Below, piece after piece: positions 1-35,806 of a stretch of DNA of 64,000 nt (position 1 is its first letter; the number at the start of each line of letters is the position of its first letter). The translations under genes and the position numbers were made by a program. The notes beneath the pieces were generated by a model. That model was not told the DNA's origin. It was given only the letters and a program-made list of their open reading frames with translations, and did no database searches. The stretch is from Amphiura filiformis. Taxonomy: Eukaryota > Echinodermata > Ophiuroidea > Amphilepidida > Amphiuridae. Location of the stretch: contig NC_092639.1 of assembly GCF_039555335.1 (NCBI RefSeq), forward strand, positions 35,898,791 through 35,962,790. Reading direction: 5' to 3'.

Positions 1-348
1 AAACCAAGGATATGCAAAATACCGACATGATAACAATAACATCTCCCAATTATCCGTATTACTACCCATCTGCAGTGGATTGCACATGGTATTTCTCTGC
101 CAATGATATCAAAGGCAGTTTCGCTCTTCATTTCCTCAAATTTGACACACAACCAGAGAAAGATACCCTAACAATTGGTGTCGGTAACATAGTCACATCT
201 CAAATAAGAGCTTTATCATTTTCCTCGTGGATATCAAGCAACGTTGTAGCGGTTATTGAAGAGCAAGCAGTATGGATGAATTTTAACTCTGATTTTGCAA
301 AGTCTAGCCGAGGATTTGAAATACAAATAGAGAGAGTTAAGGAAACAG
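1..348 (+). CDS. Copy A exon: CUB1 (partial at window edge)
   Basis: CUB domain with the SPNYPYYYP and VDCTWYF signatures and the Ca-site-like [10 protein letters not shown] stretch. By comparison with copy B (exon start 36108) about 14 nt of the exon lie upstream of the window. Donor gtaaga follows position 348; phase 1 exit. Five amino-acid differences from copy B in 113 residues. Confidence 0.9.
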
Positions 349-3300
349 GTAAGATTGCGTAGCAATAAATGGGTCAGTCAATATTGACCAGTATTATATA
401 TACCTTCTTTGAAAAGTATAATGATGCTCATAAACAAAATATGCTGCATATCTTGTTTCAAAAACTTTGCAGATTTCGATTGTGTGGTATGTAAATGTTG
501 CTTCAAGTTTAAACCAATATAGTTCATGACGTATATCAGTGTGGAAGACGGTAAAACTACACTAATCATAATGTTACTTTACTTATGCTTATATATCTTA
601 TTTGTGGTGTTTGTGAATATGTGAGGTTGTTTGGTGGAGTTTTGGGTTTGTGCCGGTAGGGGTGTGTGGGTACATACATTTATATGAACATGATTATTGC
701 ACTTGTTTGTTTGTTCACAAGCATTGTCATGGCATATCGCAATTTCAATGCTACATAAAGATAGTTTTTTGCATTGCTTTAACATTTTAAATAAACATCT
801 CAAAAAAAGTAACTAACCCCCCTTAAATAATGGCCTATATTCAAAAAGAGGCTATTGTATTACAAATCTGTAAAATACGTTGGAAGCAGAATTTATTTCT
901 GCGCATTTTGACACCTTATTTGATACGATAGCCCAGAAAACTTTAAAGTAGTGAGGGCCAGATTTGAAAGTTGCACTTATGTACAATACAAAAACACTCA
1001 GATATCATTACACAGATTTCCTTCCAATTATACTGAATTCAAAATCAATACAATTTACTTCATTGATTTAAATGTACGCTGTGACCTCAATATTTATTCA
1101 ATTGCTACAAATGAAGTGTCAAAATGTGCAGAAATATATTCTGTTTCCAACGCATTTTACAAATTTGTAATACAGTCGCCCGTTTTTGAATAATGGTCAT
1201 TATTTAAGGGGGTAGTTACTTTTTTTGCGATGTTTATTTAAAATATTAAAACAATGCAAGAAACTATCTTTATGTAGCATTGAAATTGCGATATGCCATT
1301 TACACCAGTGTACTGCTCCATTGTTTTACTTGATGCTGTGACACTTTTTGAATTTTGACAATTGACCTCTCCGTTTTTTATATAAAAGAAATTTTACGAA
1401 ACTACCTCCATTTCAATCCGTTACACGAAATCAAATATCTATCAATGATAACAGACGCCTCAATAGAATTCTCCATAGTCCACTTGCCCATTAAAACTCT
1501 GATTTAATCAATTTGTGCACATCTGATCTTTTTAGTCACCGTATTCCCTCTGTTTGTTGGCTTCCCAATTGGACTACTTACTTTGGGTTGCGGTTAAGAT
1601 TCTTAACACGGGACTCTAAGGAGAGTTAAGCCAATTTCTAACTAAAATTGGCCATGATGTAATGCATCTTTAAATGGATCTAGCTTGTGATTGGTCGCCC
1701 ACATCTCGTTATGGTTTAAATCCTCCGTGCATGTGCCATTACCATTGATTACTACATTGTACACAACTTTGCGGCGCTTTGTGTACTAGGTGCATGAGCG
1801 CGTCTTGTACGTACAGGCTTTGTGCTTGCGGTTAAATTGGACTGATAAACAAGTATGATTGACAGTGTGTGTTAGGGACTAAGTCCCCGATCAAAGTCCT
1901 GTTAAAAATGTAATGTTCATAGTCGATTTTCAACTCGGGCTTTCGAATCTACCAGTTATTTTAATCAGAACTGTTCAGTATTGAAGTGCCATTTTAATAT
2001 GTTGTACTTTAATGTTACTGTCACTAATAATTTATAATTATATAAACTTTTTCATAACCAGTATTTACTAGTATTTTAAAGTAATAAAATAATATCAGTA
2101 TAATTTCGAGTTCAACTGAATGCTTTCATAATGATCAAATAACATTGAAAATTATTTGTGTAAGAAAATGGTCCACATTTACGACCCACCAAAAATATAT
2201 AAGTTACTGGTCTGATCAGGCATGATTTTTTTTGCCGTGTCAAATAATTTGTACGTAGGTGGTGGAGTGTTAAAAAGGACCACCTTTTCCACCCACAAAA
2301 AGTATGTAGGGTGGTGGAGGGTTTGTGAATTTTGATCTCGTTGATCAGTACTTCCCTGTATGCATATTTTTCTGTGCGCAGTGAAAGTGCGGTGTGTGTG
2401 TTTGTGTCTTATTGTTCGGAGAGGATTATGGTATTGCGAAAGGTGGTAAAATTATATTGTAAATATTGTCGTTTATTGTTTATTTGGGGTTTATTGTTTG
2501 TATTTATCAATGTCATGACATAACAATCATAAGGTTGAATTACATATTAAAATTCAAATACAATAATCTTTGTCAATTTATGGCTTTTGGTAGCACATGT
2601 GGCATCAACGAGATTCTACATGACTGTATCAATTAAATTGTCGTAGAATGCGCATGTTTAGATTTATGAAGTGCTACATAAGTGAGGACTTTCTTTTTGT
2701 GTTGTGTGTATTTCAGTGCCCTGCAAGCAAACTAATGTATGGTGCAAAACTGGTGACACATGCGTGGGCGAAGTGTTTATTTGCACGGATTACCCGGAGT
2801 GTCTTAACACGTCTTCGAGCTGTGGTGAGTAAAATCAATGAAGAGCAAATAAAATGTATTAAACTTAACATGCTGCTTAAACTGAATTGTATTTTTGCGC
2901 TCCCCAAATATTATAGTTGCCCAAAAACATATAGTTTGGTAGATTAAATTTCACTACATGCATATATCATGACTTTACTTTCAAAATGAGACTTTTCGTC
3001 CTGAAAATTGGGCGCGTTGCATGAACTTCGACATGAGGTAAAATCAGCATATTTCAACGTAGCATCTGCGTTTTATACTACGTTGGAATCCAAAATGGGA
3101 AATCGCAATGTCATTTTTTGTACCCAAAGTATCACACACGTTTCAATGGGCAATCTCTGCGTATGGACATCGCGTATAAATTTAGTCGATTTTCAACACA
3201 TCGCTGTACCTTTATTATAATAATTTGTTACAAACAAAAAGGATCATAATAGTTAACGTTTTCTGTAATAGACTTTCCTTCGTATGTTCATTATCATTGA

Positions 3301-6300
3301 CTGTCTTTAACAAAATGGACAATCTTCAAAACTGGCTAAATACGTGACCTCGCTTCGATACAGGAGAGTGGTTTTGAATAGATCAACGTACGTCCGATAC
3401 CTACGTTTGGAAATCACAATCTCTGTATTATCAGTCCCAGAACAACGCCAAATATGGATTAAAAGACCTTTGACCTTGGATGTACAACAGCATGTTATGA
3501 TCTAATGGGAAACTGTGCACATCAACAAACACCATTTCTATCAAAAAGGCAACGGCCGATATAATTTGAAACCACATAAATTACTAGAGTTGGTTCTTCT
3601 CTCGGCCAGTTTATTTTGCATAACAAAAATGTGCATAAAACTGCATAATGCTGCATACCAAAATGCCAAAGATTCTCAGGCTAAAAGAGTAAAAATTATG
3701 AGAGCTCCCAAGATTGAGGAGTTGTATTAAATTTTTATGCCTATACTTCCAAAATCATATGGTGGTAGACTTGTTTTCTTCGATAAGTGTTAGACTTGTT
3801 TCAAGTCTTTGAAAGCAAACCGGCCTCATTTCCAACGGCATAGTTCAATAGCATCATACAACAGTAAGTGCTTAAAATGCAAACTCAAAGTGTGGAGTAT
3901 GAGTTTCTGTACCCAAGGACGCTCAGTGATCAAAGTGTTTAACTATACATTGTATGAATAAAAATATATCCAAAATGGTCTCAAGTGCATAGTTTGGTGA
4001 CATGCATGTAACAAGCATAACTCACAATTTGACCTCAAATTTGAGGTATGAATTTTTACCCTTAACACATTAAAAGTTCACATAAATAATTTACAAACAT
4101 ATTATGAATAGAAACATGTGTTCCATAGATGAGCATGGTTGAGATTCTGCAAGGTCTTGTTTCTGGGATTGGCCAAACTTCTCTGGAGGTCTGGCATAGG
4201 TGCCAATAATATGTAACAAAACATAATTGCCAAATTTAAAGATCCATGATCCCAAATGGTTTCCCAGCATTCAGTAGAATTTTACTATACAATATTGAAA
4301 TATGAACACCATACATCATGAGCACAGCACCGAATTTGTGTGGTGCATTGTGGGATATTAATGTTTGTTTATCTTATCTTCTATCTGTATAACATTAATG
4401 TTATACTCATAAAAATGTTGTCAAGTAAACTAAATGTCTTAATATGATTTCCAGATTTGTTCTCTTTATTGTTTTAAATTAAAATGAGAGGTTCAAAATT
4501 CCAGCATTTATTCTAAGCATTGACTTGCTGGAAAAAAGGACTTAGAAATCATGAAAAGGTATAATGCCATATTTTAATCTCTCTTGTTTTAGCATTGTTT
4601 AGCAGTGGACATAAAGAAAAAATATTTAGGCCTAATCTTACTCCATTTTTTTAAAGTGTTTCTGCCCTGTTTTATGAGCCTTTTAAAACATTTTTATTTA
4701 AATGGTGCCCCATGAAAGTGCTTCCTCTTTACTCCTTCGGCTTGCAAAAATTTAGAAAACTTCTACAATTTCATCACATTCTGAAATGATAAACACAGAC
4801 ATCCTTGGGACTTGTGTTAGCAGACCCTGTCTGTTAAAACAATTAATATACCATGCCACAAGACTTCTAGTGACATGTGACATAATAACATCTTTCAGTA
4901 CACAGTTCTTTAAACCCAATATACTTGTACACACATAGAATGACCTTTGAGTCTGTTGGGTAAAAAATCTCTAACTGGAGGTCAACTTTGAGCTATATGG
5001 AGGTTATTGAGCTTTGCCATAGGAGATGAGATCATTTTGGCTCAAAAGTAACTCCTAGGGATGAATAACTCCCCAAGTCCTCTGTCCTTTTTAGTCTGCA
5101 AATCCCATTATGCGGTTATGCAGTTTTATGCACTTTCTGTTATGCAAAATAAACTTGCCGTTCTTCTCTTGGATTTGGACCAAGCTTTAGAATATCGAAT
5201 GTTGCGTTTTGAAATAAAACAAACCAGAAATTTATCACCCATTGTAAAAGATATGTGACATGTACCGAATACATGTACATACATTGGCTGACCTTGTGGA
5301 TTTCCTGGCCCAGCCATGCTAACCACATAAGGAGATTATACGATTAACCTAGTGCAGCTATTGTCATAGCAGGGTATTATTATGTAATACTCCTGATCCA
5401 TATTTGGCGTTCTCTTGGACTGATTATTATAGTACCAATTACTCATAACCATACAATCATTTTCCTCTTCCAGATAATCAGTCGGCATCCAGAAGTATAC
5501 TTTAGGCGGAGGTGCCCTATTAAATGTTAGCTTAGGACATTGAATTATTTTATTAAATTAATTAATTAATCAAATGTCCAAAGCTAACTTTAAATAGGAC
5601 GCCTCTATTTAATGAACAAAATATTATTTTTAATGAAATGATAGATACAAATTGACACTCTAATTTTCCTATACAGCGGTGTGTGATGATGATATTGATT
5701 TTAAGTGTTATTCTGGCGTTGGGTGCGTAGACAAGGCTCTAGAATGCGATGGCATCAGAAACTGTATGGATGGATCGGATGAATGGGTTTGCTGTGAGTA
5801 TTAAACACCCCGCCCACCCACACAACGCCTACACCCACACATATTCAATTAAACGGAATAAACTGCATATTCGTAAATAGGCCATTTATTCCGTTATCAT
5901 GTTTATGATAAGGATAATGAACTGAGTGCAATGCATTCGTCAAGATAATCGCACGCGCCGTGGAGTTATTGCATTTAGCTCGAGAGCCGATAGGCTCGAG
6001 AGCTAAATGCAATAACTCCATGGCAAGTGCAATATATCTTGACGAATGCATTTGCACGAGTACAGTATCCGTCATACACTTTGAGTGTATTAAAACAATA
6101 GGCAATATTAATTGCTGCATTCATTATATTAGTTTTAATATTAGGGAAAATATCTTACATTTTAAAAACACCGTCAGGCCATGCCATTGACCAGCTAGGT
6201 AGCATTTAACTGGTAAAGAAAATCAATCCCTGTATAAGCTAGCTATCAATGGTATCGATTGCGCCATACGTCGTACTTTAGTATGACGTATGGCGCAATC

Positions 6301-9300
6301 GATACCATTGATACGCATGGTTTGTAACCAATTGACTTTATGTTGTGATCATTTAATATCGTGGTTTCGAACACAGAGAGCACTGAACCAGTTCACCTGG
6401 AAACGATCAATTTAGATGTCCGACTAGTACTACGGTGAATTGAGATGAGAAAAAAAAATATGAACTGGACTTTATAGCTCTATAATTTGAACTTTAAATC
6501 TACTTATATTAAAACAAACGACATTGGGATTTTACAATTTGTTCAGTATTATAAAGCATGATCATGATATTATGCGCTAGTGTGTGTTTCCCGGGCCCGG
6601 CCATGTTATTTTAGACATAGGCCTACATGTATTTCATTTGTAAAATGCTGAATATTTTGCAATGGTGTCATCTTGTAAAATTATGATCCACCTGTTTTTG
6701 GCACTTTTTAATTAATAGAAGCTCGATTATTCTCATTTGATGTTTGATTTATTTGAGGTCATTAATCATAATTTATGACAACGATATTTGCAAAATAGAA
6801 CACCGTTTGTAACTATACCATTTTAACACCACAGAATGTATATTCGTACTTTTTTGATGGTATATATATCAAACAGACAATTATATAGTTATGTGACCAG
6901 GCGGCATAGGAAGCGCAACAAGTGACGTACGAGGCTGGCGAAGATACAGGGCTGACAGCCCCATTCAAAATACACGGTTAGCAATTACAAATGGAAAATT
7001 AACATACTTGCAGTGGGGTACTTTGTAGAACCCCGACGGTTTTAGAGTAAGATAATTTTGCTTTGACACTACATAACAAATTTAGAATTGTTTGTGAAGA
7101 TTTCATGATTATGTGTAAATCCAATGGCGACCTCAAAATTGGCGCTATCGCTTCCATCACCGCCTGTATGTGACCTCTGTGTCGAAAGCGCCACCTAACT
7201 CTACTATATAATTATGTGAAAGTAGTGTTTCTAGTATTTGAGCGTGCACGTATTATCTAGAATCTATTGTTTAGCGTGCGGGTTTTAGATAATGCATTGT
7301 TTAGCGTGCAGGTTTATATAATTTGGGCTATGAAGGGTAGTTCGCAAAAATAATGCACGGGAGAAGAATACATAACGATGAACAGAAACGGGCACTAGAA
7401 GTGTATAGACAGATAAGACAGTGTGATTCAAAATGAAGTAAACTCATGTTTGTGGCGTTTTTGTACGAAATATAGAAGGAATTAGTCATGATCATGGTAG
7501 TGTGTTGACTGGTATAGCGCGATATTCAAATGCAAAATAAAGTTGTGTGGCAGGAGTACCTAGCGGGCTACATTGTGGCAGAAAATATTGCAAAATATGG
7601 GTCACAAATACCGATTTTCCCTCTATTTTATCACAATTTTTTAACTTCACCTAGGATTAGAGAGGAGGAAATTATTGAGGAGGCTGAGCCCCCAAGCCCC
7701 CTCCCGTTCCTAAACCTATGGCGGCTGACGGCTATTTGACGGCTCTATAACCTTTGACCTCGTATTTCTTTTATTGCCCACTGGGCACCTGTCATTTTTG
7801 ACCACTTAACATATTAGGCATCAACTTGAACCAAGAAATGTTAGTCATACGCAACTTTACACTAAAGGGGAAAGAACAAAAAAGGCATTTACTAGATAAT
7901 GGACATCATGTAATATTTTTAATAAAGGAGGTGTGATCTCCTCAATCCATATACTGTTTTACACAGCTTTGAAGGAGTAAATGAATGGCTACTTGTGAGA
8001 GTAAAATGTTTACTTGACATTCGCAGATGAATGCAGCATAGATATAGGGAATTTACTCAACAACGGTCCAATATTCATATCCTCACCAAACTACTATTTT
8101 GGCATACCGTACCCAAGTAACCTAGACTGCATATGGTTATTTACGGAATCACAACTCGGAACCTATATGATTAGCATACTAGAGCTCACAACGGAATGGT
8201 GGGATGTCCTCGCTGTTGGACATGGACACAATGTTACTGATGATACTATGGGTGTACTTGTAAGAGAATGGTCGTTTCCTTCAAGTATCCTTGTGCCGTA
8301 TATGAAAATGTGGCTGAAGTTTTCATCCAATCATGCCATAGGATTTCGTGGTGTTTTGATGGAGATTGAAAGAAGACCAGGAACAGGTAAAAATTGCATG
8401 CTTTAAATCATATTCCCAAATACAGTGTATCCTATATAAATGTATTGAATCATTTACATTGCAAACTATAGGTCATTCAGAATTCACTACCATCGCGTGA
8501 TAGTCAACTCCATAAAAGATTTTTAAAGCATTGTGTGAACGACTTCCTAACTTTTCCTCAAATTTCAACTTTTTTGTATCATTATAATACTCAATGGTGT
8601 ACTAAAATACCCTGTGAAAAACTAAGCCTGAAGTGCATTAATTCCAGTAACATTGAAGAGTTTTTGATTAAAACAATAATGTGTGATTTGCATAAAGTGT
8701 TCGTCAATACAGCTTTAGTCTCCTCCACCTTCGCAACACGGTACGTGGAGTAACTGGAATCACACTGTCGGCGGAGGAGAATACTAGCTGGTCAGACTGG
8801 CATTTGATCGATTTACTACAGAATAAATTGTATACTCAAAATATAATTTTAAAATTATAAACCTGATAACTTATATATTTGTGTACTAAAGTATAAGGAC
8901 ACGTGAATAACATCATGTAGGAAACAATATGGCCGCTAATCCGCCTATTGTCTAGACCTAAGCTATATCGTCCGGTTTCGTTACGTTATTTCAGATGCCT
9001 ATCCCGTCTATTGATCCCTGATTTTATGTAATTCCACCCTCACTTTTGGTTTCTGCCTTTTACGCCCTCAATCCCTTTTCGCGCTGCTTTTGTCTTTGTT
9101 TTTGTTCCATATTGATCATGTCTTATCATACGCATTGCCGTCACCAGCACACATATTTTGCATCTCTCCTCTCGGTAAGTTAATGTTTTGCTTAGGTTTT
9201 TATACATTCCCATACTCATTCTGTTTTTTATTGTTGGCTCTATTCAGGAACCATAGCATCATAATTTTGCTATTTTTATTTTGCCATCAACAGTTTGTAT

Positions 9301-12300
9301 TATAATTCCTTTTTCTGTATAATCTTTGTACATAAACATTGTTTCTGGTCTGCTCAGTTTTTGATTTTGTAATATTTTCCAGTAATGTATGGATTTATTG
9401 CCTGACATTTATGTATCCTCTCTCTGTTTATTCATTTAACAGTTTGCCAATGCCATCCTTGATGAAGCCCTGAAGGCGAAAGCTCGGATTAAATTTCATG
9501 TTACATGCTACGTTGTCATCTGTTCTCATTTCTTATTTATATATATATATATATATATGTGTATATGTATATTTATACCAACATTTTACTCATAGTTAGA
9601 CTTTCTTTTGAATAAAGTGCTCAATCCCAAAAGGGAGAGCATATAAAAATTCAATATTTTGTATTGAGATCAAGAATTTAATTTTCCATACGTGGATAAC
9701 AAATGTACTTTCATGCTAATGTATTGACTTTTGATTGTGTAATTAGTTGAGTGCTTACCCGACCAGTTCGCGTGTTCTAGCGGCTTTGGCTGTTTAGACC
9801 AAGCTTTGGTTTGTAATGATAAGGGAGAATGTATGGACTGGTCAGATGAGTGGGCATCCCCATGCGGTAAGTTTTCGAAATTCATGATCAGGGTTGCTAT
9901 ACACCATCAGTGAGGATTCATACTTTGGAACTCGAAGTCAAAATATTCGATGCAACAAGTATTCGTTATTCAATCAGTTTCAATTCATTTTTATCTTCTA
10001 ACGAATGTTTGTTGAAACAAAATAAAACATATTTGACGTCGAATATAGCTGGTGCATTATATTATCGATTTTACGTCAACAAAAATTCGTTACAAGTTGA
10101 TTTGAAATATAATTGGAATAGATTGACTGAGCAATACTTGTTGTACCGTACAATCGACGTCGAATATTCAGTTATTCTTATTTCGATTTCATTGTTTTTT
10201 TCATTGGTGTACTTTCTAGATTATTGCCCCAATAATACTGTTTCCGTCGGCAACGAAGTACTCGATTACAAATCGCCATTTTACCCTCTCTACTACCCGA
10301 ATAATCTGGACTGTTTCTGGCGCGTCACAAGTGACCATTCATCAGGTTCTCTGCTAATCACATTCCAGACGATTAGTTTGCATTACGAACAGGACATCTT
10401 ATACATCGGTATTGGGAACGAGATTACATACTCTGCTGTAATTCTACGTCTTACAGGCAATGCGGGGCCACGAAAAGCATCAGTCGAAGACTCGGCATTG
10501 TGGTTGAGACTGACTACAAATACTGAGGGTCAAATATCGATCGGTGTTTGGCTACAGATTGAATGGCGGGAAAAATATGGTAACATTTTACTCTTCTGTT
10601 GACAAAATTGAAAAAGGCCTTAACCTTAAAACCAATTTCATAATATTATTGCTATTTAAAAGTAATGAATTTGTGACCGTACACCACGAATGAGCCGTAA
10701 ATTCGTCTCCGGTCAATTTAGTTTTATTTCGTGTTTAGAAAATATATATCATAAGCTTTAAAATGGTATATCATTTGACTTCAAACGATATCCAGAAGCG
10801 GGTTATGGTTTGTTGAACTTTGCTCCTTCAACAAAATGGGTTTTTTTCGGTTCTACATGTGTCTCTATTTCCACATTGCTGGTAACAAATATCAAACAGT
10901 CATAATTGGCGGTCATTTCAATTCATCCCATAGTCAGCGAGGTTCAGGAATGTCCTTGTTGATTGTTGGTTATACATACCTAGACAAAATACAATGCTTT
11001 GTAACCCATCACTTGAACAGGATTTAGTCAAAGCAAACAAAGACCAGAGCTATTTAAAAATTCTATAGAAATAGGTAGACGCTTATTATCCTCTTCAACA
11101 ATAGGATTATCGATTGGTTTAAAAGGTGTTTGACAAAATGAGACACTTGTCGCACCAATTTCAGGTACCTATGAATATGACCTTCATGCACATTTTACAC
11201 TGTAACTCAGAATACAATTTATGACATTTACGGCTCATTCGTCGTGTACGGTCACATTTAACAGTAATCCGTTTGTCAAAAAAACATTTTAACCCAACTT
11301 GGATCGTTGATTGTGCAAGCTTTGTAAACACTACATAAATGGTAATATTTAGCGTTAGTATTAATACCCGTGGTATTGATATTGAATATAAATATTGATA
11401 CTGATTGATAATGATACACTGCTTGCCTTTTGTGTAGGTTTAATATTGGAATACAATGCAACAAATTATCAATCACCTTTAAATATTTTGCATCATTTTC
11501 TTCTATAGTTGGTTGTGATCCAGATCAATTTCTATGTTCTAATGGCTATGGTTGTGTAGATGAAGCCACAGTATGTGACGGCCAGGACCAATGTTTACAT
11601 GGATCGGACGAACGAGACTGCAGTAAGATATGGTTTGTTAATTTGGTTGGTTCGCTAAAAGGAAACGGAATCCATAGTTTGCCGGGGTGTATTGATGTGT
11701 ATTTACTGCTAACATAAACATAGGGCCTATCACAACTACAGTATGATCTCCGTTATCTTATTTTATTTTTATTATATATATCATTTATTATACATTCTTT
11801 GTGTTAATACTGGTTTGTATAATATTTGTCCAATTAGATTTCTGTGGCATTGAAGATATGTATCTTACTCCTAACAATGAATTCAATGTGACGTCACCAC
11901 GGTTCCCTAGACAATACCCTCTTACCATCGACTGCTCCTGGACATTAGTTACTTCTACCAGAGGAAACATCGTCATAGAAATCATAACATTGGATACTGG
12001 TCTATACCAAGACAAGTTTTACGTAGGAGCGCCTAATGCGACCATTCCATTTGACGTTTATGAGGCTATTGAAGGACCACTTGTGTTAAGGTTCACAGGA
12101 TCCGAAGCACCGAAGTCGGTGTTGTTGCCCCATTCGGAATTGAAAATGGCGTGGGATGCGTCGCCGTGGAGCCGAGACAAAAACACTGGTTTTTTTGTGA
12201 GAATAACATGGTCAGAAACTAATAGTAAGTAAACGAGAACGTTATTATCATGGCTAGTTATTATTATATCGTGGCTTGTTCCTAATATTTCAAAGCTGTA

Positions 12301-12970
12301 ATCAAGTATAATGGTATTTTGAAAAGCAGTCGACTTCAGGATAACATTCATTTAATGTAATATCAAAATGGTCGTGGTCCAAGAGTTAATAATCAAGGGA
12401 AACCAAGATGGGCCATTCGACACATTTTGACACAGGGCGTGAGTAGCCTTATTTGCGAGAGATAATTTGCGAAAAATGAAATGAAATCTGTACCCAAATC
12501 ATTAACTTCCTATTAATACATCGAAATGTGTTTGTGCAACAACCGGTTCTCTACTAAAGCGCTAATAGTAAACACTGCACACCGGTCTTAATAAAATGCT
12601 AACATTAAACACTTTAATGAGGAGTGATACCACCCTCTGTTGTTATGCAGTTGATGCTGTTATGTAGTTTATTTTGGTCCAAACCATAGGTGTTTTTCGG
12701 ATGCGCAAGGCAAGTTTGAGGCCCTCTCTGGGCCCGGGCCGCTTAATTTCTTTCTGCAACCATAATGGGCCGCAATATATCACTAACCGCATAGTCCGAG
12801 GCAAGGTTCATTATTGTCAGGGTTAGGGTCTTAGGGTTAGGGTCTTGGGGTTAGGGGTTAGGGGTTAGGGGTTAGGGTTAGGGTTAGGGTTAGGGTTAGG
12901 GTTAGGGTTAGGGTTAGGGTTAGGGTTAGGGTTAGGGTTAGGGTTAAGGTTAAGGTTAAGGTTAGGTTAA

Positions 12971-13001
<31 letters not shown>

Positions 13002-16000
13002 GGTTAGGGTTAGGGTTAATGTTAATGTTAGGGTAAGGGTTAGGGTTAGGGTTAGGGTTAGGGATTAGGGTTAGGGTTAGTATTATATTCGTATTTATTA
13101 GTACTAATATACTAGTAATAGTATATTGTGTGTATGCACTTTATTCCTTAATCAATAAGTATCATAAACAAACACCTTTGTGGCACAACGAATCATAGCA
13201 CAGTCGTGTAGTCATTAGACTATGGATACATAGATTGTGGGTTCGAACCCCAGGTAAACCGTTGTAGAATTTTTATTCTATCGATTTCTTTTTATTTTAT
13301 TAAGTAAGAGGAAATAATAATGGTAAAAAACTCGTGTTATATATAGCACTTTAAGACATGTACAAAACATAAACACAGCTCCTTTAGTAGGGCGACTATG
13401 TTTTGTTATAGTGAGATTTTCCACAATTTATCCACAGCTACATGTAATGCTGATGATTTCGTGTGCCCTTTAAATCTGGGCCTTATGTGTCTTTACGCGG
13501 ATCAGAAATGTGACGGTCGACGTCTATGCCCAACAGGACTTGACGAACAATTTTGCGGTAAGTAATATGATAGAGTACACAACTTAGGAATAGGCTACCT
13601 GGGGTGGAATTGGCTGGGTAAAATAATGCATTGCATAGAGGCTAGCATTTAGTCCGGCCTGACGATTTTTCGTGCGTTTTTCCGTTGAGACAGACGTTGG
13701 GTTTTCAGCAGCTACTTCCGGTTCTCCGCTGCAGTTTTTGCTTCCGTTCTATGATTTTCCACTCCATTAATGATCGTTGTTCTTCGCAGGACAAAAACGT
13801 CCGATTGCTCAAATTCCATATATAGAAAGCAATATATATTTTTAGTACTAATTAATTGTTTCTCTTTTTTACAGGATACTGTGGACCAAGAAATATATTT
13901 CTTGAAAATATAGAAGTGTTGAATTACACCTCACCCGGGTTTCCATTGCAATACCCGCCGAATCTAAATTGCGAATGGTATATCACAGCGGAGGAAAATA
14001 TGATTATTGCATTACGTATCAAGAGCTTCGAATTGGAAAGAGGATTTGATTATCTTTTAACAGGTAGGCGGTTTGATTGTCATTCATATCACGCGGGGTG
14101 GACCATGAACCAAATGCTTGTGTGATATCTGAAATGATAGTGGCAAAAAGTTCACCAAAATCTATATATCGTCCATGGGCAGGAAAGACCTCCTATGCGT
14201 CTTTGGCCCCTGAACATGTTTAAACCAAAATTTCCTATGTGACCTATTCGCAGTTTTGTTTTAAACATGTTTAAGGGCCAAAGACACAGAGGAGGTTTTT
14301 CCTGCAAATTATTATGGTCAGAGAATTGTAAGATAGCTACCAGAAAAATCCGTTTGCTGCGTACGCCCCTTACAGCATTCTGTGTCGTTCATCCTGTTTA
14401 ACATGGTTAGATATTTTAGAACTTTGACTGGCACTTCTGAGTTTACGAGTGACTAACAATGACGCAATGTTCTTGATAGGTAATGGCTTAGTGGCTGGAA
14501 AAGAACAGACTGCTAAACTAACAGGCGAAGTAAAGATCCGGACTATTTCATCTAGGGATTCCACCATGTGGATGATACTTGAAACTGATAACACAGGCCA
14601 GTTAGCCGGATTCCATTTACAGATAGAGAAGCTTCCTGCCAGAGGAATTAATGGTAAAGTAATAAATATGATTCTTGAAATCACACCACCATACGACAAC
14701 TATCATTTTGAACTTCCAAGCAGGAGCTGAAGCAGCTAAAGAAAAGTTTAATTAGCCATCGAACTCCTATCAAAATAGAACAACATTAGTAATGATCAAA
14801 AGAAATTCAATTGCATTATCTTCTACAAATTTAATAAGTAAATGCGTCTACTATTAAAGGCCGGGATTAAAGGATGCGTTTTTTAAGATGGATAATACCC
14901 TGATAGCAATAGCCGTAAAACTTACTTGGACCGTATTTGACCATGTTAGCTTAGCTAGAGAATCCGTACAGGTAAACGGGAATTTGTTTCCGACTACAAA
15001 CACGTTCTTTGTCAGGATGGTGACTGTTACTACACCTGAATAATCTTGTTAATTATATTTTCTCATCCAATCATGAACCCAGTTGGTAGATATCCCAGGT
15101 TTAATTTCTAGATGATTAATTAGGCTCTATATGCTCATACTTTGAGTAGCTACCATTGGTACTGCGTGTTGTTTGAAAGTGTTAATTTGTTTGGTAATTA
15201 TGATGCGTTGACCATTACGACTGCTCAGTGCCAGAAGTGGGTAAGTGCAATAGCTGCCATGTGTAGCTGTCGTGTGTATGAGAACAATATTCTGTGTGTA
15301 AATTGCCAAATGTTTACAGGGCAGCTATTGCACTTACTCATTGAGCAGTCGAATGATGTAAAAACAACTTTTATCGACATTTATAATTGATTTTTTTTCT
15401 TAGCTTTATGCGAAGGTAGTGATTACCATTGTGGTTCAGGATTTTGTGTATCTTACAATGCGAAATGCGATGGATTCACCGATTGCTATGCCAACAATGC
15501 AGACGAACTACGTTGTGGTAAATACCGTCTCCTACATTTCTAGCTATAAACGAAGTGTTGAACTTTTTGACATTAAATTTGTATTATTTCATATAAAACT
15601 ATTCGGCACAATTTTTAAAATTCTATACGGATTCTGAATAGTAAATAATAAAACTAACTGTTATCAAATCAAAATCATAATCCAAAACTATTAACGAAGA
15701 GAAAGTTATTACAGATACATAAAAATATGTTTTACCTGGTTACATCTGGAGAACCACTGTATATGTAGCGTTCTTACCATTTTAAAGTTACTACACTGAT
15801 GCATGACGTAACAAAACTGTACAAATATTTGGTACACCGGTCATTTTACATCAGCTTTTATCTGAAGCTTTGTTATCTTACCTTTATAGCATATATCCAT
15901 TGTCCTGGGTCCTACCTGTGTGACAAAGCACCTGATGTGAACATCTCAAAGTGTGTGACGATGGATGAAGTATGTGATGGCGAGATCGAATGTCCCGGAG

Positions 16001-19000
16001 GAGATGATGAAACATTTTGTGGTATTCAGTTAATTGTTAACATTGGACAATGTCCCTTTTAAACAAATCATGATTTGAGTTCATGGTCAGAATTTTCCCT
16101 GCGACAGTTTACTTAAAATGACGCTAATGTATCCGTTATACATTTTTTTATAAATTAATAAAGATACTTTTTATAGTTCCCATAGAGATCAATTAATACT
16201 GTCATAAAGTAAACGGTTGTTTCAGCATTCTTCCTGATGGATGAGTAACAAGTAAATGACTACGATTAGGTGGAGAATAAGGAACAATGTCTATATAAAC
16301 ATGATAAATAAACGAACACTGAGAAATTCGAGTGCATGTGGAGTAACTTAACTTTACATAAAACGTTCAGAATTAAGCTTTCTCATGAGGATTGCTTGAT
16401 GAAGTACTCACTCTGAGGTTGTTTCATTCGTTCATTCAGGCATTTGTTCTTTTATCCTTGTACTTTGCAGATGTGAAGAAATGTCCAGATGATTGTTCTT
16501 GTCAATATGAAGGAGAAAGTCTCATCGTCTCATGTGAACAAGGGTGGGCAGATGAAACTCTAAACAACATGGCTAGAACATCAAATTCATTGTGAGTATA
16601 CCAGGAATACCTCGGCCTTGTGATGTTTAGTCAGAAGCCTGGTGTTTCTTTGCACATGCAAATAAGACATTTAATAGATATTGAATAATAATCAAACTTG
16701 TTTTATAAGGTAACACGATCATTCCCCGTTTACATAGTTTGATTAGCTGTGTTTTCTTCTGGTATTGCAGAGTGTTATCAGAAGGACACATTGGAATTCT
16801 TGAACCTGCGATTTTTAAAGGACTCGCTAATTTACACACACTGTAAGTTTTTAATGTTCTTGTAACTTCAAAGTCAAGTAGCCTGAATACGACCACATAA
16901 CGTTTCAATTAACCTGTTCCTACTGCGTTTTCAGTGTGTAATTAATCACAATAAACCCTTCTACAATTTCTTTTAGGTCTCTGGAAGGAAATAGTATTGA
17001 TATTTTAGAACAGGGATGCTTTGACGGGCTTTACAACGTTACATGGTTGTAAGTATGAATTGACAAAGAACATTTATTTTAACTAAAACAATTGGCTTTG
17101 TGAAATATATATCCTGGATACATTAAACGAACAAGCTTTTTTTACCATACCTTTTTAATTGGATGATTTTTCGCATCATGTTTGTATCTAGGGATCTTTC
17201 ACGAAACAACATGTCTTACATTCAGTCAAATTCATTTGAGGGTATGCCGATATTGCAGGAACTGTAAGTATGTGTTAAAATGTGGTCATTATTTCCAAGT
17301 CAATTTTTCAAGATTTAAATCCCGCATATAGTTATAATAATTGTAATTATATCTAATAAGGTCTATTTTCATGAAAAAATAAAGAGTTGTTTTTCTCTGA
17401 CATAGAGAAAGACACAAGAAAGACGTTAAGAAGGTAATTTTACATAACTGCACTCGTGGGTTTCTGAGATAAAGAATCATTACATGTAGAAAATTAATAT
17501 ATTTAGTTTGTCAAATCGATTCATACGCGTCGCCGTGGGTCCATTCTTTATTTGTAATTATAATGTTGTTTAAATTTGTTAATGTAGCTTAATTTGAGTT
17601 GTTAAGACATAAATGAGCTAGATTGACATTAGCTGTATAAAATATTCTCAAATTTAGGTATTTATGGGATGTACCATTGACTACCATACATAGCGACGCA
17701 TTTGCCGGAGCTACGCTTTTAAAAACTCTGTAAGTTAATTGAAATGCTATCAGAATACGACGTCGTCTTTCATAGTTTTGGTTGTGGGTTTGGTTTTAGT
17801 CTCGCGGTTTCCCACTGTCATAGCTTACATCCCGGCGGGAGTTGTTATCGCTCGATTTGTTTCTATCCTTTAATATTACGAACCCAGTGGCGTAGCCAAC
17901 ACTCAACAAGGGGTCGTGCAAAAGCCCACTGTTCCTTACAAGTTATTGCTAAATGATATATATAAAAAAGTAATTGTGCTAATAAAATTCTTAATGTTTC
18001 ACTGTACTCTGGTTGTGTTTTAAACCGTATACTAACAGAACTGTTCACCATCATACATCTAAAACTCATTTAAAGCTTCCAAATGCTATGAAATTTCGAT
18101 AACTGAAAACTGCTGGTAACCCCGTAATATATACATTCCGAGACCTAAATGTAAAATGGTGTGCAATTATTTTCTTTCCAAACAAAAAAGTGTGTTGATC
18201 CGTGAAAGAGCAAGATACATTTCAATAACTGTGCATGAAAATGGATTCCGTGGACTCACCGCCCTACGAAAACTGTAAGTACTTGCATGAGACGACCTAA
18301 ACATGCAACACGGATCTGTTCATATACAGGCAGTAACGGTGACCTCCAGTACATTTTAATTCCGACAATTGAATTGATGCTACTTATTGATTTCTTAAAT
18401 TAATTGTTGTATTCCCTGCAATTTCGCTGGATTCTGACTGCCAAATCTAAACGTGTTTATTATAGTGATGCACATTTGAAGCTACTAAAATTGACGCTTT
18501 TATTAAATGATATTCTTGTTGTGATTTGTTTTCACATTCCTTTCCTGTTCTTCTTTTCAATTTCCACAGGTACGTTGACGACCACCATTTATGCTGCCAT
18601 TTTGATACTCTTGACGACTGTATCACTCTAGAGCCACAACCACCGCTTTTCATGTGCGGAAGCCTTATGCAAAACTCTGTGTTACGCATATCAATGTGGA
18701 TTCTGGGTATCAGTGCGCTAATAGGAAACGCTTATGTGATCGTTCTTCGCATACGGGAAAAAACGAAAAATTTAATAGCGGCAAAGCAATCGGTGTTAAT
18801 TGGTAGTTTGGCAGTGTCAGATTGCCTTATGGGGGTGTATATGGTTATTTTGGCATCCGTAGATGTCTATTACGGCGATGAATACTTCATTTATTCAGAC
18901 GATTGGAGGTCATCTGGTCTTTGCAAACTAGAAAGTTTCCTTTCCCTATTATCGAGCGAGGCCTCGGTTTTCTTCATTACCTTGATAACATTTGACCGAT

Positions 19001-19641
19001 TCCTTTGTATTGTATTTCCTCTAAGCACGATCAAATTTCATTTGCGATCATGTCGAGTTGCGACCCTGATAGCTTGGCTGATCGCTTTCGTGTTAGCGCT
19101 AGTTCCTACTTTACTTGCCGGACCTGAGTCAGAGTTTTATGATCTGTCCGATGTTTGTATTGGTTTACCATTGATTACTCGCCCTACAAGTTACAACATC
19201 GAATCGAGTGATGTTGGCGGTCTTAATTCAGCGCGTACGTTTGATCTACCTGTACCAGAGCAATTCAAGCCAGCATGGTTTTTCTCAATCTTCATATTTC
19301 TTGGTTTAAATTTAGTCTGCTTTCTTTTCATATTTGTGTGTTATTTCGTAATGTTTATAAATGTCAAAATAGTGCGTCAGAAGATGAAAGGGGTAATAAA
19401 TCACGACAGGGATGCAGATTTAAAACTGGCGGTCAAAATGTCGGCGATAGTTGGTACAGATTTTATATGTTGGATGCCAGTGATTATCATGGGTCTCCTC
19501 TCCCAGACGGGAGCCGCCGTCATTCCTCTGCAGATGTACACATGGTCTGTTGTATTTATCATCCCTATAAATTCGTCCCTTAATCCATATTTATACACAA
19601 TCGCCACTCTTATTACTGATTACAGAAAGCAGGAAAGTTGA
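1..19641 (+). CDS. CUB-LDLa-LRR seven-transmembrane receptor, copy A (5' partial)
   Basis: Multi-exon host gene; twenty coding exons are visible and the signal-peptide exon lies before the window. Domain order is CUB1-LDLa1-LDLa2-CUB2-LDLa3-CUB3-LDLa4-CUB4-LDLa5-CUB5-LDLa6-LDLa7-LRRNT-5 LRR-7TM. Every inferred junction is AG/GT; CUB and LDLa exons are phase 1-1 and LRR exons phase 2-2, so the whole reading frame closes. The 7TM part has LAxSD in TM2, DRF at the end of TM3, CWMP in TM6 and NPxLY in TM7. Known family: LGR receptors, nearest in layout to type C (relaxin receptors with one LDLa; GRL101-type with many). It should be a plasma-membrane G-protein-coupled receptor with a large extracellular ligand-capturing region; ligand unknown. 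No frame break is seen within the window, but the cytoplasmic tail is shortened. Copy B is a close tandem paralog. Confidence 0.9.
349..2716 (+). other. Copy A intron, CUB1 to LDLa1
   Basis: Holds the 729-1299 foldback element. 1330-2158 has no counterpart in copy B and shows no recognised feature. 2158-2340 is shared with copy B (42085-42330) and contains repeated TGGTGGAG-type words. No exon recognised. Confidence 0.6.
729..1299. repeat. Long foldback element in copy A intron
   Basis: Two arms of roughly 215 nt in inverted orientation, beginning ATGGCATATCGC and ending with its complement GATATGCCAT. The two arms differ at scattered sites, so the element is old. The same element at the same site in copy B (39439-39983) dates it before the gene duplication. 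No coding capacity; a non-autonomous MITE-like element. Confidence 0.75.
2717..2824 (+). CDS. Copy A exon: LDLa1 (divergent)
   Basis: 108-nt phase 1-1 exon after tatttcag, donor gtgagt. Encodes six cysteines in LDLa spacing (PC, WC, TC, IC, EC, SC) but lacks the usual acidic SDE calcium-binding end, which reads ECLNTSSSC here. Confidence 0.8.
3590..5180. repeat. Decayed inverted-repeat element, copy A only
   Basis: 3595-3660 (AGTTTATTTTGCATAAC, then GTGCATAAAACTGCAT) recurs as an inverted copy at about 5105-5180. The interior has no coding sign. The 2.5 kb around it has no counterpart in copy B. Family unknown. Confidence 0.4.
5505..5605. repeat. Small foldback MITE, copy A
   Basis: GGCGGAGGTGCCCTAT at the left pairs with ATAGGACGCCTC at the right around an (AATT)n centre. 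Same site in copy B at 46597-46714. Confidence 0.7.
5677..5793 (+). CDS. Copy A exon: LDLa2
   Basis: 117-nt phase 1-1 exon, acceptor atacag, donor gtgagt. Classic LDLa: [10 protein letters not shown], then [13 protein letters not shown] and a final Cys, so the calcium-binding residues are present. Confidence 0.92.
5926..6056. repeat. Large hairpin
   Basis: Arms of about 60 nt around a GATA loop: GGCTCGAGAGC next to the loop and TGCATTCGTCAAGATA at the outer end, with the complements on the far side. Confidence 0.8.
6244..6313. repeat. Near-perfect 33-bp hairpin
   Basis: 33-nt arms around a TTTA loop with one mismatch; the outer arm reads TATCAATGGTATCGATTGCG. Probably a foldback insertion or a MITE end pair. 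Confidence 0.85.
8027..8386 (+). CDS. Copy A exon: CUB2
   Basis: 360-nt phase 1-1 exon, acceptor ttcgcag, donor gtaaaa. CUB signatures: [20 protein letters not shown], a WDVLAVGHG turn and a closing [10 protein letters not shown] strand. Only two cysteines. This is the most divergent exon between the two copies (about 13 of 120 residues). Confidence 0.92.
8387..9746 (+). other. Copy A intron, CUB2 to LDLa3
   Basis: The first ~300 nt are shared with copy B. The rest is copy-A specific and includes a possible Penelope-like 3' fragment (9440-9500) and an AT dinucleotide run near 9540-9560. Confidence 0.55.
9440..9500 (+). other. Possible retroelement 3' fragment with hammerhead-like core
   Basis: TTGATGAA, then a GCC/GGC mini-stem, then GAAA resembles the hammerhead-type fold found in Penelope-like elements. 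The first core base (C in CTGATGA) is T here. Short and not decisive. Confidence 0.25.
9747..9866 (+). CDS. Copy A exon: LDLa3
   Basis: 120-nt phase 1-1 exon, acceptor aattag, donor gtaagt. Reads [18 protein letters not shown], then [12 protein letters not shown] and a final Cys; SDE motif kept. Confidence 0.9.
10220..10579 (+). CDS. Copy A exon: CUB3
   Basis: 360-nt phase 1-1 exon, acceptor tttctag, donor gtaaca. [18 protein letters not shown] is a typical CUB start; [11 protein letters not shown] is the calcium-site turn; GVWLQIEW closes the fold. The open frame runs upstream into the intron, but the acceptor and copy B fix this start. Confidence 0.92.
10672..11256. mobile_element. TIR element, TGTGACCGTACAC family, copy A
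   Basis: About 30-bp terminal inverted repeats: TGTGACCGTACACCACGAAT at the left, its near-complement ending GTGTACGGTCACA at the right. No coding. Same site in copy B (53200-53751); a third relative at 45043-46401. Confidence 0.78.
11509..11622 (+). CDS. Copy A exon: LDLa4
   Basis: 114-nt phase 1-1 exon, acceptor tctatag, donor gtaaga. [29 protein letters not shown]: complete LDLa with calcium site. Confidence 0.93.
11838..12224 (+). CDS. Copy A exon: CUB4
   Basis: 387-nt phase 1-1 exon, acceptor aattag, donor gtaagt. [20 protein letters not shown] and YQDKFYVG are CUB marks; the loop before the last strand is longer than in the other CUBs. Frame intact here, with seven T where copy B has six. 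Confidence 0.93.
12819..13080 (+). repeat. Interstitial telomeric repeat tract (TTAGGG)n
   Basis: About 262 bp of GGGTTA repeats with some variant units (TTGGGG, TTAAGG, TTAATG), in the intron between CUB4 and LDLa5 of copy A. The copy B intron lacks it. Confidence 0.97.
13204..13262 (+). other. tRNA-derived SINE-like fragment
   Basis: GGGTTCGAACCCC is a B-box match, with TGTAGTCATTAGA upstream resembling an A box; no acceptor stem. Confidence 0.35.
13438..13557 (+). CDS. Copy A exon: LDLa5
   Basis: 120-nt phase 1-1 exon, acceptor ccacag, donor gtaagt. Six cysteines (TC, VC, MC, KC, LC, FC); KCDG is kept but the SDE end has become GLDE, a weaker calcium site. Confidence 0.88.
13875..14063 (+). 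CDS. Copy A exon: CUB5, first half
   Basis: 189-nt phase 1-1 exon, acceptor ttacag, donor gtaggc. [20 protein letters not shown] is the CUB start; the exon ends after FDYLL. CUB5 is the only CUB split by an intron. Confidence 0.9.
14179..14305. repeat. Foldback MITE, copy A only
   Basis: Arms GCAGGAAAGACCTCC through TTTGGCCCCTGAACATG, with complements ending GGAGGTTTTTCCTGC. Lies in the intron splitting CUB5; absent from copy B. Confidence 0.75.
14480..14653 (+). CDS. Copy A exon: CUB5, second half
   Basis: 174-nt phase 1-1 exon, acceptor ttgatag, donor gtaaag. Joins to give GNG after YLLTG, then the MWMILETDN and [10 protein letters not shown] strands that close a CUB. The two halves make about 121 residues, the size of the single-exon CUBs. 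Confidence 0.9.
15219..15350. repeat. Foldback MITE in copy A, right arm shortened
   Basis: GACTGCTCA and GTAAGTGCAATAGCTGCC pair with GGCAGCTATTGCACTTAC and TGAGCAGTC. The word GTGCCAGAAGTGGG survives only in the left arm. Confidence 0.7.
15404..15517 (+). CDS. Copy A exon: LDLa6
   Basis: 114-nt phase 1-1 exon, acceptor ttcttag, donor gtaaat. [21 protein letters not shown] is clear LDLa; the terminal SDE is replaced by NADE. Confidence 0.9.
15890..16021 (+). CDS. Copy A exon: LDLa7
   Basis: 132-nt phase 1-1 exon, acceptor tttatag, weak donor gtattc kept in copy [33 protein letters not shown]; a short insert sits between Cys2 and Cys3. Last module before the LRR cap. Confidence 0.88.
16471..16591 (+). 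CDS. Copy A exon: LRR N-terminal cap
   Basis: 121-nt exon, acceptor tttgcag, donor gtgagt; enters in phase 1 and leaves in phase 2, joining the phase-1 module region to the phase-2 LRR region. [21 protein letters not shown] is the cysteine cluster of an LRRNT cap. Confidence 0.9.
16771..16842 (+). CDS. Copy A exon: LRR1
   Basis: 72-nt phase 2-2 exon, the standard LGR repeat exon. Encodes [12 protein letters not shown] with [10 protein letters not shown], a 24-residue LRR. Confidence 0.9.
16977..17048 (+). CDS. Copy A exon: LRR2
   Basis: 72-nt phase 2-2 exon, acceptor tttag. [21 protein letters not shown] with the conserved Asn and Phe positions. Confidence 0.9.
17192..17263 (+). CDS. Copy A exon: LRR3
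   Basis: 72-nt phase 2-2 exon, acceptor tatctag. [18 protein letters not shown] is a textbook LRR (LSxNxI, then NxFxG). Confidence 0.92.
17658..17729 (+). CDS. Copy A exon: LRR4
   Basis: 72-nt phase 2-2 exon, acceptor aatttag. [18 protein letters not shown], then LLKTL; LRR with the Asn replaced. Confidence 0.88.
18191..18274 (+). CDS. Copy A exon: LRR5 (84 nt)
   Basis: Exon of 84 nt, four codons longer than the other repeats, still phase 2-2. Acceptor is an AG after a pyrimidine run and seven [21 protein letters not shown], then LTALRKL. Start is the only AG that fits; copy B has the same layout. Confidence 0.78.
18570..19641 (+). CDS. Copy A exon: hinge, seven-helix domain and short tail
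   Basis: 1072-nt terminal exon after tttccacag. A cysteine-rich hinge (LCCHF, then DDC, then MCGS) precedes TM1 with IGN. TM2 has SLAVSD, TM3 ends [14 protein letters not shown]4 has AWL, extracellular loop 2 is long with VCIGLPL, TM6 has [10 protein letters not shown]7 has [10 protein letters not shown]. These are LGR-family 7TM marks; the TM3 triad is DRF rather than DRY. The frame stops soon after TM7 at YRKQES. Copy B continues for another 26 or so residues, so this tail is truncated. Confidence 0.93.
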
Positions 19642-21310: not shown

Positions 21311-22330
21311 ACTTTGCTTAGTTATTTGATGTTATAAACCATCCATCCAAATGCCAAATAATTTCAGTCACCAGAAAAAGAAATATGGTGAAATTTGACT
21401 ATCGTATGAACAACAATATTTTATCAAGAACTGATTCTATCAAGGATCTTGGTATTGATATTTTATCTAGTCTTGTATGGAATGACCATGTAAGACGTAT
21501 TGTCAACAAGTGCAATAAAAAGTTGGGTATGATAAAACGTGCAGTAGGATTTAACGCTCCCGAAAGGGTCACAAGGACACTTTTTACTGCACTGGTCAGG
21601 AGTGATGTGGAGTATGCCAGCTCTCTCTGGAGTGGTACATCAAAACGTATTCTTCGATTAATTGAAGGCATCCAGAGGAGAGCAACAAACTAGGTTAACT
21701 AAATTAAACCTCCATCCTTTGTCTTTTAGACGTGAAATCCTTGATCTCACATTCTTTTTTAGATGTAAAATGGAACTTTATGACCTTAATCTTAACCATT
21801 TTGTTGTTTTTAACTCCACCCTCAAGGACCGTCCCACCACCAGATCATCTGCTGAGCCCCTATTGTTGATTCCCAAACGATGCAAAACCGAATCTCACAG
21901 GGCATCGTTTTTCAATCGTATCGTTCCCCTGTGGAATCAACTTCCTCTCACAATTAGATCCACTGTCAACATGTCCTCTTTTAAGAGCCAGCTCTTTGAG
22001 TGGTACAAGAACAAACTAGAGGAGAGTTTTGATCCTTACAACACATGCTCATGGGTTACAGGTTGCCAGTGTTCTGGTTGTAGGCTTGTGTAGGTTTTTT
22101 GGGGGAGGGGGAGGGGGTGTCCTCATTGTTTTGATCTTTGGTGGGACTGTCCTAGAGGTGCTTTGCACCTGTTAGTCCTTGCCTTTCACTGGTGCAAAAT
22201 TTTATCTATACTTCCTTTTTTTTTTTGTATGTACTTTTGAATATTCATGTGCAATATATTTTGATGTTATATTATAATTATTGTATATACCAGTGATAAA
22301 GTGTAATAAATAAATAAATTTAAAAAAAAG
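21311..22330 (+). mobile_element. 5'-truncated non-LTR retrotransposon (CR1/Jockey-type LINE) 3' end
   Basis: Encodes the C-terminal part of a LINE reverse-transcriptase ORF: SKCQIISVTRKR, then KDLGI, W.DHV, KLGMIKRA, VEYASSLWSG and IQRRATN, then after a frameshift near 21690 the LHPLSFRREILDL tail, stopping at 22093. A 3' UTR follows, ending in TAATAAATAAATAAA and an A run. Most of the element is missing at the 5' end, as is usual for dead LINE copies. Confidence 0.85.
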
Positions 22331-24383: not shown

Positions 24384-24570
24384 ATTTATTTATTTATTCA
24401 TTTATTCATTTATTCATTTATTCATTTATTCATTTATTCATTTATTCATTTATTCATTTATTCATTTATTCATTTATTCATTTATTCATTTATTCATTTA
24501 TTCATTTATTCATTTATTCATTTATTCATTTATTCATTTATTCATTCATTTATTTATTTATTCACTTATT
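24384..24570 (+). repeat. (TTTATTCA)n tandem repeat
   Basis: About 23 units of an 8-bp satellite. Because 8 is not a multiple of 3 all forward frames read through the same cycling peptide, giving false open frames. Confidence 0.97.
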
Positions 24571-35742: not shown

Positions 35743-35806
35743 ATGATACCTCTGGCAGGATTGCTTTTATTATTTCGTGTGTACGGAGTGTACGGAAACA
35801 ATGAAG
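35743..35806 (+). CDS. Copy B exon: signal peptide
   Basis: ATG opens [18 protein letters not shown], a hydrophobic secretion signal, and the exon leaves in phase 1 at gtaagc, matching the CUB1 entry phase. An in-frame ATG at 35635 would add 36 residues before the hydrophobic core; the later ATG gives the better signal peptide and is preferred. No promoter element was recognised upstream. Confidence 0.75.

Follow-up and report, generated by a model that had tools for sequence, protein, structure and literature searches.

The window analysed here, a stretch of 64,000 nucleotides from the ophiuroid Amphiura filiformis (assembly GCF_039555335.1, contig NC_092639.1, positions 35,898,791 to 35,962,790 of the forward strand), holds, with a probability of roughly 0.75, two tandem copies of a gene for a type-C, GRL101-like (C2-like) leucine-rich repeat-containing G protein-coupled receptor (LGR), in which five CUB modules are interleaved with seven LDLa modules ahead of a leucine-rich repeat (LRR) block and a class-A seven-transmembrane (7TM) domain. 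Gene and domain structure, taken together, we regard as very likely correct. The second copy keeps the exon order of the first and the CUB/LDLa arm is as constrained as the 7TM domain, in agreement with an earlier, sequence-only reading of this stretch that had placed the CUB and LDLa modules ahead of an LRR-7TM unit in one LGR-type receptor.

Copy 1 consists of 20 exons on the + strand within 1-19641, separated by GT-AG introns and joined in a single open frame. Its modules follow each other as CUB1, a degenerate LDLa, LDLa1, CUB2, LDLa2, CUB3, LDLa3, CUB4, LDLa4, CUB5 (two exons), LDLa5, LDLa6, LRR cap, five LRRs and one 7TM exon (Table 1). A first model, built by splice-site placement, had 19 exons and 18 introns, all of them GT-AG and phase-compatible, with a frame of 1365 residues; the exon of the degenerate LDLa, with AG and GT at its edges, splits one of these introns in two. 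CUB and LDLa exons start and end in phase 1 and LRR exons in phase 2, four of the latter being 72 bp long and the last 84 bp. The one splice-compatible frame described in the sequence-only reading is thereby borne out. The extent it gave to the gene, 1-19641, does contain these coding exons; it overlooked, however, the tandem copy at 35.7-63.2 kb and a 5' end that precedes the window, the signal peptide and the initial CUB1 residues of copy 1 lying outside.

On the spliced 1365-residue protein of copy 1, which lacks the degenerate LDLa, Pfam finds the five CUB stretches that had been claimed (6.8e-48) and five Ldl_recept_a stretches (4.7e-28). When exons were scanned singly, each lengthened by a few residues from the exon that follows, Ldl_recept_a was matched by all six clear LDLa exons; five of them exceed the Pfam cut-off and LDLa6 falls just short of it (23.1 bits versus 24.1). 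The CUBs scanned alone (copy 2 CUB1, copy 1 CUB2 and CUB4) all pass the CUB cut-off. Screening the introns of copy 1 for overlooked phase-1 exons containing four or more cysteines returned three candidates, all conserved in copy 2. Two of them are versions of the same degenerate six-cysteine LDLa, which is bordered by AG and GTGAGT and differs between the copies at 5 of 108 bases; its Pfam match is weak in copy 2, and none is listed for copy 1. The third, at 392-490, has four cysteines and does not look like an LDLa. The tally of seven LDLa modules made in the sequence-only reading therefore holds as six clear modules plus one degenerate.

The CUB assignment is backed by fold as well as by sequence profile. 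An AlphaFold2 model of CUB1 (mean pLDDT, the predicted local distance difference test, 78.7), based on seven of the ten CUB copies and leaving out both two-exon CUB5 and the frameshifted copy 2 CUB4, finds its best matches in solved CUBs, namely PCPE-1 (TM-score 0.82) and a neuropilin-1 complex chain (0.79). A few beta proteins other than CUBs are matched too, with lower TM-scores (0.54-0.63). CUB domains usually have two cysteine pairs; here CUB1-4 have one each, and CUB5 likewise. In an alignment with neuropilin-2, three acidic positions that we take to be CUB calcium ligands are all kept in CUB5 and two of the three in CUB1. Solved matches of the CUB/LDLa arm (26 sequences) include cubilin, enteropeptidase, neuropilins, VLDLR, PCPE-1, C1s and TMPRSS6. 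Adgrg6/GPR126, a G protein-coupled receptor that likewise carries a CUB in its ectodomain, is also among the solved matches of these CUBs; it belongs to the adhesion class and is not known to have the LDLa-LRR-7tm_1 arrangement. No fibronectin type II domain appears among the Pfam matches of the spliced copy 1 protein up to E 0.1.

The LRR block comprises an N-terminal cap (CPDDCSC..C) and five LRR exons, matched by LRR_8 at 7.9e-33 on the spliced protein of copy 1 and at 2.2e-36 in a scan of the LRR exons. About 40 residues of the last exon form a short hinge before transmembrane segment 1 (TM1), and the Pfam 7tm_1 profile is covered in full (8.1e-24). The combination of a capped LRR ectodomain with a class-A 7TM domain is that of an LGR. 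Hydropathy gave nine overlapping windows, corresponding to TM1-TM5 and to a single block, at 288-335 of the last exon, that takes in both TM6 and TM7, and does not by itself resolve seven separate stretches. The motifs GN (TM1), LAxSD, DRF, W (TM4), CWMP and NPYLY are present in copy 1, and the cysteines of TM3 and extracellular loop 2 are in place. The LRR cap, the five LRRs and the class-A 7TM with DRF, CWMP and NPxLY had all been recognized in the sequence-only reading, and Pfam returns each of the families it had put forward for a domain search (CUB, LDLa, LRR and 7tm_1). NCBIfam gave a sub-threshold match only, and a 7TM scan of viral contigs returned three pattern stretches and no relative. 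A single-sequence structure model of the 7TM domain was set aside for its mean pLDDT of 39.8.

Among the best 60 of 136 matches to solved structures, the 7TM domain scores highest with RXFP1 (129 bits), followed by TSHR (107), FSHR (101), LHCGR (90), 8w1z (90) and LGR4 (50). The preference for RXFP1 comes from TM5-7, with 56.4 bits versus 35.6 for TSHR, TM1-4 being equal (79.0 versus 78.4). RXFP1 itself, apart from its own entry, matches LHCGR best (96 bits). As a ranking of bit scores rather than a tree, with RXFP1 as the only type-C receptor among the listed solved matches, this result is in keeping with a type-C receptor close to RXFP/GRL101.

The classification of LGRs uses LRR number, hinge and LDLa: receptors with LDLa make up type C, within which LDLa number separates C1 from C2; the hinge measures about 30 residues in RXFPs and 72-123 in other LGRs (PMC4561518). 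N-terminal LDLa modules and a short hinge suggest that the present receptor is of type C. Type C1 (RXFP) receptors carry a single LDLa, or two in some starfish (PMC8286064), followed by a linker, whereas here seven LDLa and a gap of four residues are found; in addition, ten LRRs are modelled in RXFP1 (PMC4561518) as against five LRR exons. RXFP1 and RXFP2 share with it the position of LDLa before the LRRs. Several LDLa and few LRRs suggest type C2 instead, GRL101 being compared by description: Lymnaea GRL101 has six LRRs and twelve LDLa, is an orphan, and has been proposed to have an insulin-like growth factor (IGF)-like ligand whose basic tail is read by the LDLa modules (PMC8286064). Both have many LDLa, few LRRs (about six, against five LRR exons plus cap) and a class-A 7TM near those of the relaxin and glycoprotein hormone receptors, and they differ in that the seven LDLa found here alternate with CUBs, which go unmentioned in the sections of PMC8286064 consulted.

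A related possibility, which is compatible with our reading and to which we give about one chance in three, is that the gene is simply the GRL101 orthologue of this species and that GRL101 gained CUBs in its lineage without comment. The LDLa and LRR numbers of the snail receptor (PMC8286064) would fit, and a GRL101-like receptor with six LDLa is in print from a starfish (PMC6267866), in the main text of which the word CUB is absent; on the other hand, the text on ambulacrarian GRL101 and the Fig. 11 legend in PMC8286064 name LDLa and LRR only, in the 12 of 13 places covered, which do not include the single occurrence of 'cub'.

The sequence-only reading had placed CUB domains outside the textbook LGR classes known to it, but the combination of CUB and LGR has a precedent. 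A 2022 review (PMC9545775) reports two type-C LGRs, Nvec-LGR4 of a sea anemone and Tadh-LGR-5 of a placozoan, that carry LDL modules with extras such as CUB and fibronectin II, and CUB in an LGR is thus known outside Bilateria. Like the present receptor, they unite LDL, CUB, LRRs and 7TM in one protein. They differ, compared by description, in the fibronectin II named for them, which may not be a defining feature; the number and order of their modules are given only in a figure of that review. Cnidarian LGRs near type C1 also carry multiple LDLa (PMC4079206), and amphioxus has Adhesion receptors with CUB and LDLa (PMC2246102). Within the literature examined, partly in excerpt, PMC9545775 is the only source describing CUB domains in an LGR, and the alternating order of five CUBs and seven LDLa without fibronectin II was not found in the texts searched, the figure of PMC9545775 standing outside this comparison. 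Since CUB-bearing LGRs were already in print, any claim to a wholly unknown combination is reduced: the CUB-bearing multi-LDLa LGR is an unusual variant, not a new receptor class.

The second gene copy is complete and lies in tandem on the + strand at 35743-63241, with every exon kept in the same order. An LDLa profile made from five LDLa exons revealed the sixth clear LDLa (open reading frame 9743-9910) as well as a second group of six at 46.8-58.7 kb. Self-comparison of protein and of DNA shows the entire locus to be duplicated; at the DNA level, 1-21182 matches 36123-64000 in blocks that are about 74 to 94% identical and are interrupted by large insertions. The distance from one copy to the other shifts between 36 and 43.5 kb over the locus, and the match reaches the end of the window. 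The signal-peptide exon of copy 2, the sole clean one found, is spliced straight onto a complete CUB1, and profile searches upstream of it within the window detected no additional CUB or LDLa exon; the receptor therefore most likely starts with CUB1. That copy 2 might be an uncollapsed allele or an assembly artefact rather than a tandem paralogue is suggested by the repetition of one unit in succession and by the nature of its two frameshifts, one-base homopolymer losses typical of read errors. We consider this improbable, however, given that the silent-site divergence (0.088), the block pattern across exons and introns with its large insertions, and the difference in CUB1-LDLa1 spacing (5.3 kb in copy 1, 10.3 kb in copy 2) are large for alleles.

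Some local features were noted along the two copies. Between 9713-12672 and 52271-55179 identity is an unbroken 93%, introns included, and silent divergence is low in CUB3, LDLa3 and CUB4, perhaps because one copy has converted the other. At 12819-13080, within the intron separating CUB4 from LDLa4 in copy 1, the telomere-type repeat TTAGGG recurs about 42 times in the form AGGGTT, an array for which a tandem-repeat scan shows no counterpart in copy 2. In the LDLa5-LDLa6 intron of copy 2, an extra stretch at 57600-58290 carries direct and inverted copies of GTCGGGTTATATAAAGG (four matches with at most 2 mismatches versus 0 expected) and resembles a small transposable element.

The ratio of nonsynonymous to synonymous substitution rates (dN/dS) between the copies is 0.28 over 1363 codons, with 0.24 for CUB+LDLa, 0.25 for the 7TM and 0.57 for the LRRs. 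Left out of this calculation were (i) codons gapped in copy 2, the copy 1 stop and the first two bases, and (ii) the longer tail of copy 2, the signal-peptide exon and the degenerate LDLa exon. Arm and 7TM are similar in dS (0.094 and 0.081) and equal in their ratio of synonymous to nonsynonymous differences (Fisher P = 1), and purifying selection is significant in both (P 4e-11 and P 9e-5, respectively). Such equality is in line with one protein, but a pair of neighbouring genes, each under constraint, could give the same picture. The shared strand, order and phase of all exons, the single open frame of copy 1 and the position of the signal-peptide exon ahead of CUB1 likewise support one gene.

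Three groups of observations weigh against the reading of a receptor gene in two tandem copies, and concern the joining of arm and receptor, the state of the copies and the ligand role. As to the first, the joining of the exons into one receptor is a prediction from genomic sequence alone, and the junction that ties the CUB/LDLa arm to the receptor, at the LDLa6 donor (GTG|GTATTC), has 4 of 9 consensus bases, the lowest among the 18 introns of copy 1 and the 19 of copy 2. Moreover, an ATG at 58929 in copy 2 shares the reading frame of the LRR cap, from which a hydrophobic leader separates it, and could begin a short LRR-7TM form. Together with AATAAA signals in the intron after LDLa6, one pair of which lies at matching places (16157; 58709), these features would fit a locus with two products, one a secreted CUB/LDLa protein that stops after LDLa6 and the other a short LRR-7TM receptor whose first module is the LRR cap. 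Yet the start is not conserved: the matching ATG of copy 1 (16399) reads MKYSL and then a stop, out of frame with the cap, so that we take the LRR-cap start to be fortuitous or, at most, to give an isoform of copy 2, and the pyrimidine tracts ahead of acceptors encode Phe and Leu in any case. AATAAA occurs in 42-45% of shuffled introns, read-through past LDLa6 yields dissimilar tails of 13 and 43 residues, and the LDLa6-cap intron is just 449 and 426 bp long with phases matching 1 to 1. Proteins with multi-LDLa-LRR-7TM (PMC8286064) and LDL-CUB-LRR-7TM (PMC9545775) are, besides, already in print. A two-product locus thus appears quite unlikely, and one transcript probably spans arm and receptor.

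With regard to the state of the copies, copy 2 has lost one T in CUB4 and one A between TM1 and TM2, a stop truncates the copy 1 C-tail, and constraint on the LRR exons alone is not significant (P 0.21). The final residues of the copy 1 tail are YRKQES, as a stop comes with 21 extra bases; past this insert its frame still spells the start of the copy 2 tail, until about 220 extra bases interrupt it. The two frameshifts could mean that copy 2 is a young pseudogene, or that it supplies only a secreted CUB/LDLa fragment, possibly a decoy, in the manner of the soluble LDLa-linker splice form of RXFP1 that antagonises relaxin (PMC4561518). We judge this rather unlikely, at about one chance in four. 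Each loss falls within a homopolymer and may stem from an error in sequencing, and the remaining aligned codons of copy 2, read in the copy 1 frame, contain no stop. Neutral drift of one copy since the duplication is rejected by a simple Poisson test (at least 133 nonsynonymous differences expected versus 76.5 seen, P 6e-8), and the same holds for the exons past the first loss (78 expected versus 45.5 seen, P 6e-5, Poisson). Constraint that persists beyond this point indicates that the losses are either recent or read errors.

Concerning the ligand, the role proposed here is borrowed from distant relatives. In RXFP1 the LRRs form the binding site of the ligand, and the role of true agonist is ascribed to the LDLa module (PMC4561518). 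In contrast to RXFP1, however, the final LDLa cysteine lies just four residues from the first one of the cap, which leaves no RXFP-type linker, and the hinge has four cysteines (CC..C..C) instead of two. These differences argue that the RXFP1 mechanism is not copied outright and favour a capture arm. By analogy, the gene would most likely encode a receptor for insulin/relaxin-type peptides with a long multi-module arm of this kind. Such a peptide would bind the LRR block together with the flexible CUB/LDLa arm, whose CUB modules and acidic LDLa modules may offer extra contacts for basic ligand tails, carrier proteins or matrix; binding would shift the membrane-near modules relative to the 7TM, which would then signal through a G protein by way of its DRF motif. 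The specific division of labour, in which LDLa and CUB add contacts and the membrane-near modules relay the signal, is proposed tentatively, at somewhat below even odds. The partners suggested for the CUBs in the sequence-only reading, namely proteins, carbohydrate or protease-like molecules, are possible ones. A bolder version, in which an undescribed bilaterian LGR subtype would use the alternating arm rather than the LRR block as its main ligand reader, one of its tandem copies having become the receptor that signals and the other a decoy made of the secreted ectodomain, seems very improbable.

GRL101-type receptors are orphans whose many LDLa modules are unexplained, and PMC8286064 proposes that these read the basic tail of IGF-like peptides. 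In this regard, a similar base with five woven-in CUBs provides a naturally occurring variant in which the function of the arm can be probed. It is also an example of an LGR with CUBs in which selection acts on the arm and the gene has been duplicated.

Table 1. Exons and modules of the two receptor gene copies, in positions of the 64,000-nucleotide window.
Copy	Feature	Position	Strand	Evidence
1	CUB1 (5' end before window)	1-348	+	Pfam CUB
1	Degenerate LDLa (six Cys, without SDE motif)	2717-2824	+	Intron search, twin in copy 2
1	LDLa1	5677-5793	+	Pfam 32.1 bits
1	CUB2	8027-8386	+	Pfam 24.3 bits
1	LDLa2	9747-9866	+	Pfam 36.5 bits
1	CUB3	10220-10579	+	Pfam on spliced protein
1	LDLa3	11509-11622	+	Pfam 37 bits
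1	CUB4	11838-12224	+	Pfam 26.2 bits
1	LDLa4	13438-13557	+	Pfam 26.5 bits
1	CUB5a	13875-14063	+	
1	CUB5b	14480-14653	+	
1	LDLa5	15404-15517	+	Pfam 33.1 bits
1	LDLa6, followed by the weakest donor	15890-16021	+	Pfam 23.1 bits
1	LRR N-terminal cap	16471-16591	+	
1	LRR exons 1-5 (phase 2)	16771-16842, 16977-17048, 17192-17263, 17658-17729, 18191-18274	+	LRR_8 2.2e-36
1	Last exon: hinge, 7TM, truncated C-tail	18570-19641	+	Pfam 7tm_1
2	Signal-peptide exon	35743-35806	+	
2	CUB1, complete	36108-36470	+	Pfam 43.5 bits
2	Degenerate LDLa	42715-42822	+	Pfam 15.7 bits
2	LDLa1	46787-46903	+	
2	CUB2	49748-50107	+	
2	LDLa2	52305-52424	+	
2	CUB3	52748-53107	+	
2	LDLa3	54021-54134	+	
2	CUB4 (homopolymer one T short versus copy 1: frameshift)	54346-54731	+	
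2	LDLa4	55467-55586	+	
2	CUB5a	56010-56198	+	
2	CUB5b	56457-56630	+	
2	LDLa5	57274-57387	+	
2	LDLa6	58447-58578	+	
2	LRR cap	59005-59125	+	
2	LRR1-5	59341-59412, 59533-59604, 59728-59799, 60561-60632, 61535-61618	+	
2	Last exon: 7TM, untruncated C-tail (homopolymer one A short, TM1-TM2)	62105-63241	+	

Outside the exons, a Pfam search at E 0.01 covered five of the ten long open reading frames (at least 105 amino acids) as well as the copy 2 leader that could precede the LRR cap, with a match for none of the six, and Rfam gave no match at its gathering threshold. Two overlapping open reading frames at 21322-22093, with no Pfam match, read like what we take to be the tail of a reverse transcriptase of the long interspersed nuclear element type. 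Between the two genes, at 24384-24562, lie about 22 near-perfect copies of ATTTATTC.

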